The notes below the pieces were generated by a model. It was not told where the DNA came from. It saw only the letters and a program-made list of their open reading frames with translations, and made no database searches. Shown in pieces: positions 9,966-19,264 of a DNA stretch of 64,000 bases. The translations under genes and the position numbers were made by a program. Origin of the DNA: Pseudomonas sp. Teo4 (GTDB lineage: Bacteria > Pseudomonadota > Gammaproteobacteria > Pseudomonadales > Pseudomonadaceae); the NCBI RefSeq assembly GCF_034387475.1, contig NZ_JAXCIL010000001.1, positions 2,480,001 through 2,544,000 of the forward strand. Direction: 5' to 3'. Every line of letters starts with the position of its first letter. Position 1 is the stretch's first letter.

Positions 9966-11276
9966 ATGGCTATAGCAAATCCCACCATCGCTGTTCTGGG
10001 CAGTGGCCCATCGGGCTGCTACACAGCCCAATTCTTGCGGAAGAAATGGCCAGACGCAGAGATTACCATTTTGGAAGCGCTTCCCGTGCCTTATGGACTC
10101 CTCCGCTATGGAGTGGCCACCGATCACCAGGGCACCAAAGCCATTGAGGCCCAGTTTGATCGCCTGTTCGAGCGAGACGGTGTCCAATTTGCTGGGAACG
10201 TCCATGTCGGACATGACATCAGTTTTGAGAGAATTGCCGACAGCTTTGACATCGTCGTACGTGCTACCGGATTGCGACATGACCGTAAGCTTTCAGTCGA
10301 GGCTGATGCTTGCTGCAATGTGATCGGCGCCGGCGCACTACTCAAGGCGTTGAACGGCTATCCAGCACTTGAACTGCCACTGACTGAGACAGGAGATCTG
10401 GCTCCTCTTGGAAGACACGTGGCGGTCATAGGTAACGGTAACGTTGCCATGGACGTTATCAGGCTGCTGTGCAAATCAGAGCCGGGCATGATCGGTTCTG
10501 ACGTAGACGACCGACGCTTGTCTGCGCTCCGTGCAGACGGTGTGGAAAGCATTGAGGTCTTTGGACGCTCGCCTGCCGGGCAGGCCAAATTTGATCTATC
10601 GATGCTTAAAGAAGTCGTTGCGCTTGGAGGAGTTAGAATTGAGCTCACCGGAATTACTGAGTCCGACACCGGTAAGATCGTGGAAACTTTGCTGGAGGCC
10701 TCGAACTCTCGGGCCAGCGACAGCCAAATTATTGTCCGATTCCATTTTGGCGCAACGCCTAAAGCGATAGCGAATAACGGCTCGTCATTGCAACTTTCAA
10801 TGAAAAGGGCAGAAACATCTGACCCTTCAGAGTTTTATGTTGACTCAATTATCTCAGCCACCGGCTTCACCAATGAAAGTCCCTGCGGAAGCCCCTGCAC
10901 TGAATCAAACTGGATCGGGAAAAATGTTTTCAAGGTCGGTTGGTTAAACCGCGATGGAAAAGGTGCCATCGCTGAAAACAGAAAAGATGCAAAGCAAGTA
11001 GCTGAATTAATCTGTGAAATGTTCGATGCTGGCCGTCTATCATCCTCCAAACCTGGATTCAATGCCATCCGCAACGAACTGGCCAACCCAATGGTTGATT
11101 TCTCAGGCTGGAAGAAAATTGACAACTACGAAAAAGCGCTAGCGCCTGAGAGCCGCTGTCGGAAAAAAGTAACCGATATCGAAACTATGCTGGCAATCGC
11201 TAACGACCTGCATGCTCTGAACGAGTCGAGCTTCATTAAAAAAACAGATGAACTCGTTTTCCAAACCCAGCCTTGA
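9966..11276 (+). CDS. Adrenodoxin-reductase-type NADPH flavoprotein
   Basis: Supplies electrons from NADPH to a small carrier. 436 residues. Seen: FAD motif VLGSGPSGCYTA near residue 10, the family signature PVPYGLLRYGVATDH near residue 43, the NADP-binding VIGNGNVAMD near residue 155, and the closing ISATGF plus the VGWLNRDGKGAIAENRKDA segment near the second flavin contact. Adrenodoxin-reductase homologues normally pair with ferredoxins, but the next gene, 15 bases on, is a flavodoxin. It is first in the reductase-flavodoxin-P450 unit. Confidence 0.9.
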   Translation: MAIANPTIAVLGSGPSGCYTAQFLRKKWPDAEITILEALPVPYGLLRYGVATDHQGTKAIEAQFDRLFERDGVQFAGNVHVGHDISFERIADSFDIVVRATGLRHDRKLSVEADACCNVIGAGALLKALNGYPALELPLTETGDLAPLGRHVAVIGNGNVAMDVIRLLCKSEPGMIGSDVDDRRLSALRADGVESIEVFGRSPAGQAKFDLSMLKEVVALGGVRIELTGITESDTGKIVETLLEASNSRASDSQIIVRFHFGATPKAIANNGSSLQLSMKRAETSDPSEFYVDSIISATGFTNESPCGSPCTESNWIGKNVFKVGWLNRDGKGAIAENRKDAKQVAELICEMFDAGRLSSSKPGFNAIRNELANPMVDFSGWKKIDNYEKALAPESRCRKKVTDIETMLAIANDLHALNESSFIKKTDELVFQTQP

Positions 11277-11291
11277 TAAGGGTGAAACACA

Positions 11292-11741
11292 ATGATTAGT
11301 ATCACTTTTGGCACTGAAAGCGGCAACTCCGAGATGGCAGCTGATGACATGGCAGCGTATATCCAGGAACGAGGCATTAACGCTGAAATTATTCCAATGG
11401 AAGATTTCAGCGTTAGCGACCTGCCAAACGCTCATAAATTGATTGTCATCACTTCAACTTATGGCGAGGGCGAGCTACCGGAAACGACGGCTCCATTTTA
11501 TGCCGCGCTTCTTTCCGACTCACCTGACCTCTCGGCTGTTCAATTCGCTGCTTTTGGCCTGGGTGATAGCACCTATGAAACTTACGGCAACGGGATTGAC
11601 TTGGTCGCGGCAAAATTGTCCGAATTGGGTGCACGCCAAGTTGGTGATACGGGCCGACATGATGCTGCAAAAGGTGAAGCGCTGTCGGACGTGGCGACGA
11701 ATTGGATCGAGTGCATTCTCCCTCTACTTAATAAAGCTTGA
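11292..11741 (+). CDS. Flavodoxin, probable P450 redox partner
   Basis: FMN carrier of 149 residues. Seen: phosphate loop FGTESGNSE at residues 6-14, TSTYGEGELPETT near residue 54 and FGLGDSTYETYG near residue 86, which build the flavin site. The motifs resemble MioC and the FMN domain of P450 reductases more than long-chain flavodoxins. It follows the NADPH reductase by 15 bases and precedes the P450, so it probably plays the cindoxin-like role known for P450cin, where a flavodoxin replaces ferredoxin. Confidence 0.9.
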   Translation: MISITFGTESGNSEMAADDMAAYIQERGINAEIIPMEDFSVSDLPNAHKLIVITSTYGEGELPETTAPFYAALLSDSPDLSAVQFAAFGLGDSTYETYGNGIDLVAAKLSELGARQVGDTGRHDAAKGEALSDVATNWIECILPLLNKA

Positions 11742-11875
11742 AGGTTCGCTCGCAGCGAAATCGTCAAGCGCCGGGTAGTGGTTTAGAAATGTAATAGTAT
11801 TCCATGAGCCACAATCCGCCTCTGACATGGCTGTATATGCTGAACGTCTCTACAGCACACTTGAGGAACAATGCC

Positions 11876-11983
11876 ATGGACATTACCACTACCCAAGCTT
11901 TGCGTGATTTTAAGAGCTACCTTAACGAAGCAATCAATGGCTGCATGGTTTGGCTTGCGTCGATAACGGATAACGTTGGATAG
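11876..11983 (+). CDS. Small open frame, 35 residues
   Basis: ATG 11876 has GAGGAAC upstream at fair spacing and runs 35 codons to TAG, ending 38 bases before the P450 start. The sequence (MDITTTQALRDFKSYLN at the start) matches no family I know. It may be a leader peptide, a decayed gene end, or chance. The rest of 11742-12021 shows no gene. Confidence 0.25.
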   Translation: MDITTTQALRDFKSYLNEAINGCMVWLASITDNVG

Positions 11984-17929: not shown

Positions 17930-17946
17930 ATCCATCTCCCAGAACA

Positions 17947-17979
17947 CGGCTAGCTGCCTTCGGTAGCTAGCCGTTTTTT
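17947..17979 (+). terminator. Intrinsic terminator of the first pnt operon
   Basis: CGGCTAGCT / AGCTAGCCG stem followed by TTTTTTA. Textbook form. Confidence 0.92.
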
Positions 17980-18151
17980 ATTTTTCTAAGACCACTGTTC
18001 GGCCTATGCACTTCAGGCCGCTGCGTTCCCATTGCGTGCTTTTTGCTTGGCCGATTAGCACGGTTTGATGGCCGATAATCATGGTCAAACAGCGCCTGCC
18101 CTGATGCCGAGACTAGTAAGGTAGAACCACGCTTTCAAACGGCAGGCCAAT

Positions 18152-19264
18152 ATGATCAAGTCCAGGGCAGCTGTAGCCTTCGGCCCAGAAAAGCCATTGC
18201 AAATCTTCGAAGTTGATGTTGAGCCCCCCAAGGCTGGCGAAGTCCTCGTCAAAATCGTGGCAAGTGGCGTCTGCCATACCGATGTCTATACCTTATCAGG
18301 CAACGCCCCTGAAGGCCTCTTCCCTGCCATTCTTGGCCATGAAGGCGGTGGCGTTGTCGCAGCTATCGGAGAAGGTGTCACGTCGGTATCTGTGGGCGAT
18401 CACGTTATTCCGCTGTACACAGCGGAATGTGGAAAGTGCAAGTTCTGCACATCGGGAAAAACCAATCTGTGCCAAGCCGTCCGAGCGACGCAAGGCAAGG
18501 GGCTGATGCCAGATGGAACAAGTCGTTTTTCCTATCAGGGTCAACCCATTCACCACTACATGGGTACCTCGACCTTCTCAGAGTACACAGTTGTCCCTGA
18601 TATTTCCCTGGCCAAGATCCCAAAAGAAGCGCCTCTAGAAAAGGTGTGCTTGCTAGGCTGCGGTGTGACCACCGGCATCGGCGCAGTACTCAACACTGCA
18701 AAGGTTGAAGAAGGTGCGACTGTCGCGATCTTTGGCTTAGGGGGAATCGGCTTGTCCGCCGTCATTGGAGCCAAGATGGCTAAAGCGAGCCGGATCATCG
18801 CCATCGACATCAACCCTGCGAAATTCGACATTGCACGTGAACTGGGCGCCACCGACTTCATCAATCCCAAGCAGCATGATCGTCCAATTCAGGAGGTCAT
18901 TGTTGATCTGACTGATGGCGGTGTCGACTACTCGTTCGAATGCATCGGCAACGTGCAATTGATGCGTGCGGCACTGGAGTGCTGCCACAAGGGCTGGGGT
19001 GAATCGATCATCATCGGCGTCGCAGCAGCAGGCCAGGAAATCAGCACCCGCCCCTTCCAGCTAGTAACAGGCCGCGTCTGGAAAGGCAGCGCATTCGGCG
19101 GAGTCAAAGGGCGGACTGAACTGCCGAGCTATGTCGCAAAGGCTCAGCATGGCGAGATCCCCTTGGACAAGTTCGTCACACACACCATGGGACTGGATGA
19201 TATTTATGAAGCTTTCGAACTTATGCGTAAAGGCGAAAGCATTCGCACAGTTATTAAGTTCTGA
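18152..19264 (+). CDS. frmA: S-(hydroxymethyl)glutathione dehydrogenase, class III ADH
   Basis: Oxidises the formaldehyde-glutathione adduct to S-formylglutathione with NAD. 370 residues, full length. Seen: catalytic zinc region [12 protein letters not shown] near residue 38 and GHEGGGVV near 66, the structural zinc cysteines in [15 protein letters not shown] near 93-107, and the cofactor loop [10 protein letters not shown] near 198. Its place close to a P450 suggests disposal of formaldehyde released by demethylation. No S-formylglutathione hydrolase of the classic type is adjacent. Confidence 0.94.

Follow-up and report, generated by a model that had tools for sequence, protein, structure and literature searches.

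This study analyzed a cytochrome P450 locus in a 64,000-nucleotide stretch of Pseudomonas sp. Teo4 (contig NZ_JAXCIL010000001.1, here C1, positions 2,480,001 to 2,544,000), hereafter termed the window. The locus comprises, on the forward strand, genes for an adrenodoxin-reductase-type FAD reductase, a stand-alone flavodoxin, a P450, an APC-family permease, a transhydrogenase (pntAA-AB-B), the formaldehyde-handling enzyme FrmA, and a VOC-fold protein (Table 1). Pfam, NCBIfam, and PDB matches confirmed the identities that an initial annotation had given for the reductase, flavodoxin, P450, pntAA-AB-B, and frmA; pntB scored below its NCBIfam cut-off (560.6 vs 689) but was clear by Pfam. The initial annotation had overlooked the permease and the kinship of the P450 with XplA, which degrades the explosive RDX (hexahydro-1,3,5-trinitro-1,3,5-triazine).

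Gene layout and predicted transcription units

The reductase and flavodoxin genes were separated by 15 bp and the flavodoxin and P450 genes by 280 bp, and the terminator scan detected no plus-strand terminator-like site in the latter gap. These findings are compatible with the earlier assignment of the three genes to one unit. The scan of positions 9400-20000 returned 12 sites compared with 10.8 expected; because this total was near expectation, we placed weight only on the two 13-pair stems, which follow the P450 and pntB genes. The gap between the permease gene and pntAA contained only a weak hairpin (z -3.0). The two strong terminators suggest that the permease and pnt genes, as well as frmA, are transcribed apart from the P450 unit, and the locus probably comprises at least three predicted transcription units, namely reductase-flavodoxin-P450, permease with pntAA-AB-B, and frmA with the VOC gene. 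The transhydrogenase operon and frmA do follow the P450 on the same strand, as had been stated, but the permease gene had been missed and the terminators divide the stretch. A single operon for all parts, which would place the P450 and frmA in one transcription unit, was rejected on the basis of these predicted terminators. The listed start of the permease gene is TTG, with an in-frame ATG at 13365; the VOC gene start is our choice of an ATG behind a stretch resembling a ribosome-binding site, the listed open reading frame beginning at 19131.

Table 1. Features of the P450 locus and of the surrounding island in window positions. Percentages are identities to proteins of Sinorhizobium chiapasense plasmid pB unless another organism is named. 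SDR, short-chain dehydrogenase/reductase; BKACE, beta-keto acid cleavage enzyme; ADH, alcohol dehydrogenase.
Feature	Position	Strand	Evidence
Adrenodoxin-reductase/FprA/XplB-type FAD reductase	9966-11276	+	best PDB match FprA, 131 bits
Stand-alone flavodoxin	11292-11741	+	PF00258
XplA-type P450	12022-13221	+	XplA match, 388.9 bits; fold; alignment
Intrinsic terminator 3' of P450 (predicted)	13260-13290	+	13-pair stem, -23.3 kcal/mol, z -6.4
APC-family amino-acid/amine permease	13320-14882	+	PF00324/PF13520
pntAA	15007-16167	+	NF006942, 420.1 bits (cut-off 383)
pntAB	16179-16490	+	PF12769
pntB	16493-17929	+	PF02233, 632.5 bits
Intrinsic terminator 3' of pntB (predicted)	17946-17974	+	13-pair stem, T run, -24.9 kcal/mol, z -7.2
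frmA, S-(hydroxymethyl)glutathione dehydrogenase (class III ADH)	18152-19264	+	TIGR02818, 713.6 bits (cut-off 543.95)
VOC-fold protein after frmA	19332-19715	+	PF00903
SDR gene, 3' end	1-579	+	gene C1:2479788-2480579; 68%, Poseidonocella 66%, reciprocal best matches
BKACE	744-1757	-	PF05853, 157 bits; 51%
NTF2-like small protein	2870-3286	-	reciprocal best match, 42%, to NTF2-annotated gene
Alpha/beta hydrolase	3361-4278	-	Pfam; 78%
AraC-type regulator	4710-5498	+	PF12833; 52%
AMP-forming acyl-CoA ligase	5886-7583	+	PF00501, 283 bits; 62%
SDR dehydrogenase	7634-8422	+	PF13561; 74%
SDR dehydrogenase	21996-22724	+	PF13561; 71%

Kinship of the P450 and its redox partners with XplA/XplB

In the comparison with PDB sequences, XplA was the top match of the window P450, followed by 8q5j (275 bits) and then by a match of 129 bits. 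We built a structure model on 13 relatives (pLDDT 84.5), and the fold search with this model again ranked XplA first (TM score 0.92, 45% identity), with the Streptomyces scabiei P450 8q5j in second place (TM score 0.90). By sequence and predicted fold, the P450 is therefore an XplA homolog.

We further examined the acid/alcohol pair involved in oxygen activation, the positions of which are occupied by His238-Asn239 in the window P450. The alignment contained 97 P450s, comprising the query, 82 of 85 relatives, and 14 sequences from fetched loci; three pieces of 300 residues or fewer were left out. The pair was missing in 94 of 94 XplA-type rows (His-Asn in 41, Met-Asp in 27, Pro-Asn in 19, and others in 7), which include close relatives and are not independent, and Asp/Glu-Thr was retained in all three outside P450 rows. 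The loss thus extends throughout the family as sampled. Passages of a review (PMC8081977) describe XplA as having apparently lost the acid/alcohol motif, link this loss to reduction in air, and state that XplA liberates formaldehyde from RDX.

The window system resembles XplA/XplB of Rhodococcus and Gordonia plasmids in its heme domain, its adrenodoxin-reductase-type partner, its flavodoxin carrier, and the lost Asp/Glu-Thr pair, and an annotated amino acid permease adjoins xplBA in DN22. Unlike XplA proper, the window P450 has no N-terminal flavodoxin fusion, the flavodoxin being encoded by its own gene, and carries His-Asn instead of Met-Ala; it is approximately 44-45% identical to XplA, and different pathway genes surround it. 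The window therefore holds a version of the XplA system with a stand-alone flavodoxin. The DN22 permease scored below the limit and was rejected as a close relative of the window permease.

The best PDB matches of the reductase were of the FprA/adrenodoxin reductase type, and the protein was 36% identical to XplB and 55% identical to the Sinorhizobium pB reductase. We inspected the "GRR" motif, which we take to bind the 2'-phosphate in FprA. None of the 13 family reductases inspected, among them XplB, keeps the second Arg of this motif (Ser in 11, Ala in 1, and Gly in 1); the first Arg is retained, and a nearby Lys or Arg, present in all 13, may compensate. On three alphaproteobacterial plasmids of marine or saline origin (stretches L027, L028, and L032), the reductase-flavodoxin pair adjoins Rieske oxygenase genes in place of a P450 gene, which makes a flavodoxin-fed Rieske system a candidate there.

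The window flavodoxin shares 50% identity with the corresponding domain of XplA, and its best PDB matches were cindoxin (84.2 bits) and MioC (83.9 bits). P450cin of the cineole system is also served by a stand-alone flavodoxin. The window shares this arrangement, and cindoxin is the top match of its flavodoxin, but MioC scores the same and the window P450 lies outside the P450cin family. A P450cin-type system was rejected, as P450cin did not appear in the PDB matches listed for the window P450 (60 of 543).

Distribution of the gene set and origin of FrmA and Pnt

The initial annotation had proposed a search for conserved synteny of its parts. All of them were present within approximately 32 kb (184.8-217.1 kb) of S. 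chiapasense plasmid pB, which is typed as conjugative. This cluster contains a reductase, a flavodoxin, an amine oxidase-like FAD protein, RidA, a permease, FrmA, two XplA-type P450s, BKACE, a CoA ligase, SDRs, and PntA-PntB, with Pnt located 7.7 kb from an XplA-like P450, and it shares orthologs of twelve other genes with the island around the window locus. Unlike the window, it has another gene order, a fused pntA, and extra amine oxidase, RidA, MOSC, hemB, and ABC transporter genes. The hydrolase, SDRs, CoA ligase, AraC regulator, and BKACE of Table 1 were reciprocal best matches between the island and the plasmid cluster, as were the aminotransferase (79%), flavodoxin (68%), second P450 (66%), window P450 (58%), FrmA (57%), the permease accompanying the second P450 (56%), reductase (55%), pntB (48%), two NTF2-like proteins (41% and 42%), and TetR (39%).

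Poseidonocella sp. HB161398 carries, within 14 kb, the aminotransferase, both P450s, TetR, the permease, an SDR, an NTF2-like protein, the flavodoxin, and the reductase, so that this gene set is common to three distant bacteria. Poseidonocella and Sinorhizobium further have in common an amine oxidase, for which the best match was cyclohexylamine oxidase (386 bits), RidA, MOSC, and a hydrolase. A Sphingobium plasmid encodes FrmA, together with S-formylglutathione hydrolase, at a distance of 1.5 kb from an XplA-like P450. No description of the window locus or the Sinorhizobium cluster was found in the open-licence PubMed Central literature, which is weak evidence of absence.

Across 11 XplA-like stretches (14 P450 genes), the reductase was present in 9, the flavodoxin in 9, the APC permease in 8, FrmA in 3, and Pnt in 2; they do not count as independent samples, since KTR9 and DN22 are near copies and Klebsiella, Enterobacter, and G862 are close, and their flanks range from 7 to >100 kb. 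These counts indicate that the reductase, flavodoxin, P450, and APC permease form a conserved unit and that FrmA and Pnt are recurrent accessories. The modules on Klebsiella and Enterobacter plasmids resemble the window in having the reductase, flavodoxin, and P450 as three genes in the same order with an APC permease nearby, but where the window has pnt and frmA they carry MFS and TetR genes, and their P450 is 40% identical. The arrangement reductase-flavodoxin-P450-MFS-TetR with an APC permease constitutes a portable plasmid module. Other supply genes near XplA-like P450s were an NADP malic enzyme gene in R. erythropolis and hemB in Sinorhizobium. A more remote XplA-like P450 (35%), encoded on a plasmid of Streptomyces canus, is located near the folate one-carbon genes FolD, PurU, and aminomethyltransferase. 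The S. canus cluster also holds glutamine-synthetase-like, gamma-glutamyl-GABA hydrolase-like, and aldehyde dehydrogenase genes, another amine-degradation setting.

The 6.5-Mb genome of strain Teo4 contains two further XplA-like P450s, at C1:2474683-2475849 (43%) and C1:2576724-2577887 (42%), and C1:2574198-2579671 forms its own complete module of TetR, APC permease, XplA-like P450, flavodoxin, and reductase. In a survey of sampled genomes at an E value of 1e-60, XplA-like P450s were rare: besides this genome, none of 297 from its family, none of 368 from its class, and 1 of 397 from its phylum had one, and, besides Poseidonocella, none of 197 from that organism's family did. A genome-contig scan with a single sequence returned one close relative among 6 loci. 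P450 relatives also occur in P. coleopterorum, P. capeferrum, and P. ogarae (41-44%), and the family is thus present in Pseudomonas.

From the FrmA identity table, only rows read at annotated places were used; four rows (G3608 and three of Poseidonocella), which had been read on the wrong strand or frame, were left out. Among the best 120 of 3798 matches, the window FrmA was 95% identical to one unnamed protein and 85-86% identical to named Marinobacter, Thauera, and Pseudomonas enzymes; it was only 57% identical to the FrmA of Sinorhizobium pB and 63% identical to that of the Sphingobium plasmid. The window pntB was 91% identical to another copy in the genome and 48% identical to the Sinorhizobium pB copy. 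FrmA and Pnt are thus closer to gammaproteobacterial, betaproteobacterial, or own-genome copies than to those of Sinorhizobium, which fits separate recruitment. The Sinorhizobium and Sphingobium FrmA proteins were 70% alike, and their linkage to a P450 may not represent independent events.

The genome has two further frmA genes (82% and 73% identical to the window frmA) and one further pntB outside the window. A recent origin of the window FrmA from an own-genome copy was rejected, given these values compared with the higher ones elsewhere. We also rejected the idea that FrmA has the lowest identity of the genes held in common with Sinorhizobium, its 57% being mid-range. A frmA gene paired with a VOC-fold gene is also present on the Sphingobium plasmid and at the genome's other frmA, C1:2310609. 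A second pnt operon is located at 35769-38655 on the minus strand, beside an SDR gene and three Gfo/Idh/MocA genes, and its pntB is 85% identical to the first.

Proposed amine pathway, competing explanations, and the surrounding island

We favor, with moderate confidence, the interpretation that the locus encodes the P450 and electron-supply portion of an amine-type catabolic pathway gained by horizontal transfer, with FrmA and Pnt as separately recruited accessories. The substrate, probably an N-alkylated or cyclic amine or an N-heterocycle, would enter through the APC permease, and the FAD reductase would pass electrons from NAD(P)H through the flavodoxin to the XplA-type P450. A second XplA-type P450, 16 kb upstream, would act in the same pathway, and the products would proceed through the class III aminotransferase, SDRs, hydrolase, acyl-CoA ligase, and BKACE. 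FrmA would remove a one-carbon by-product, and Pnt would supply NADPH at the flux of a growth substrate.

Several findings support this interpretation. Among them are the top rank of XplA by sequence and fold, the frequent company of reductase, flavodoxin, and APC permease in the 11 stretches, the gene set common to Sinorhizobium pB and Poseidonocella, the NADP malic enzyme gene near the R. erythropolis P450, and the release of formaldehyde from RDX by XplA. The guanine-plus-cytosine content was 0.51-0.54 in the window and in stretches L015-L017, compared with 0.59-0.61 in three core stretches of the genome, which argues for acquisition; it was 0.56 in L018 and L049 and 0.63 in L050, and the locus appears to sit in a low-GC acquired catabolic island. 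Amine chemistry is supported by the class III aminotransferase, the best matches of which were class III enzymes of the omega-transaminase type, and by the cyclohexylamine-oxidase-like enzyme and RidA in Sinorhizobium and Poseidonocella. The one-carbon genes near other XplA-like P450s, in Sphingobium and S. canus, support the accessory role.

Other findings weigh against it. FrmA and Pnt were present in only 3 and 2 of the 11 stretches, respectively, and the second module of the genome has neither nearby. The Poseidonocella set has no FrmA or Pnt in the surrounding 100 kb, three frmA genes lying elsewhere in that genome, and no relatives of the reductase, flavodoxin, or permease were present in the 21 kb examined around the Sphingobium P450. 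The window reductase, judged from its motif, may not prefer NADPH. Moreover, a substrate is known for no unfused XplA-type member, and the families to which the SDR, aminotransferase, and hydrolase genes belong are broad.

The initial annotation had proposed a closed cycle of demethylation by the P450, formaldehyde conversion by FrmA, and NADPH regeneration by Pnt. Spelled out, the P450 would use NADPH to N- or O-demethylate a growth substrate, FrmA together with glutathione would convert the formaldehyde to S-formylglutathione and NADH, and Pnt would convert NADH to NADPH for the reductase. The adjacency of the parts in the window, their presence within approximately 32 kb on Sinorhizobium pB, and the proximity of FrmA and S-formylglutathione hydrolase to the Sphingobium P450 are consistent with this cycle. 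Linkage thus does exist in relatives, but it is loose; moreover, separate transcription units are predicted, the genome has two more frmA genes and other pnt operons, and the NADPH preference of the reductase is unsure, NADH being named for XplB assays in the review passages (PMC8081977). We therefore consider the closed cycle somewhat unlikely. The earlier interpretation was partly supported overall; demethylation, the closed cycle, and a reductase preference for NADPH stand as hypotheses.

Pnt might instead serve island dehydrogenases that depend on NADP(H). Both pnt operons of the window lie among SDR genes, the second far from any XplA-like P450, but the first is 3.3 kb from the P450 and the corresponding distance on Sinorhizobium pB is 7.7 kb; we regard this explanation as unlikely. 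It is improbable that the island carries pnt and frmA as cargo with no relation to an otherwise real P450 unit. The low counts of FrmA and Pnt, the strong intervening terminators, and the second pnt operon of the window would fit chance neighbors, but with three frmA genes per 6.5 Mb we estimate that any one gene has a chance of approximately 1% of lying 10 kb or less from a frmA gene, yet the association recurs in three hosts, with FrmA proteins 57-63% identical to that of the window in the other two, although the latter pair may not represent independent cases.

Class III ADH enzymes can have a second activity, that of S-nitrosoglutathione reductase. A P450 that works reductively, as XplA does on nitramines, on a naturally occurring N-nitro, N-nitroso, or related compound, with FrmA handling a nitrosative by-product, is very unlikely: XplA is the nearest relative and the acid/alcohol loss is family-wide and tied, in the review passages, to reduction in air (PMC8081977), but the window P450 has His-Asn rather than Met-Ala, the aminotransferase, BKACE, and CoA ligase indicate ordinary carbon use, and no nitrite- or NO-handling gene was recognized among the annotated genes. 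Regarding the substrate of the favored amine pathway, tropane or calystegine breakdown would fit, but it was rejected as established because the literature found ties no gene of this type to it, and it is retained as a candidate.

XplA is used in the bioremediation of explosives, and to our knowledge the role of XplA-type enzymes before RDX is not known. In the island, as in its counterparts from Sinorhizobium and Poseidonocella, XplA-type P450s belong to recognizable gene sets for amine degradation and adjoin a transporter gene, so that the natural substrate can be tested directly. We tentatively propose that these P450s may be an old plasmid- and island-borne family that opens or N-dealkylates natural amines or alkaloids, one member having come to degrade RDX later. 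Oxygen activation, if used, would proceed without the usual acid/alcohol pair (here His-Asn), two P450s would act per pathway, and hosts would repeatedly add one-carbon disposal and NADPH supply.

Further features were observed in the window. An AraC-type regulator with a DJ-1/PfpI-like part and a weak GbdR match, at 8539-9514, runs through two different reading frames (8539-9168 and 8813-9514), indicating a broken gene or a sequencing slip. A 562-residue open reading frame at 31975-33663 on the minus strand had no Pfam match. A transposase gene (HTH_38 and integrase core), presumably IS30-like, lies inside the island at 47235-48251. The minus strand at 38710-46307 carries three Gfo/Idh/MocA genes followed by biotin carboxylase, CT_A_B/CT_C_D, and LamB/YcsF genes, which look like a biotin-dependent 5-oxoprolinase-type set.

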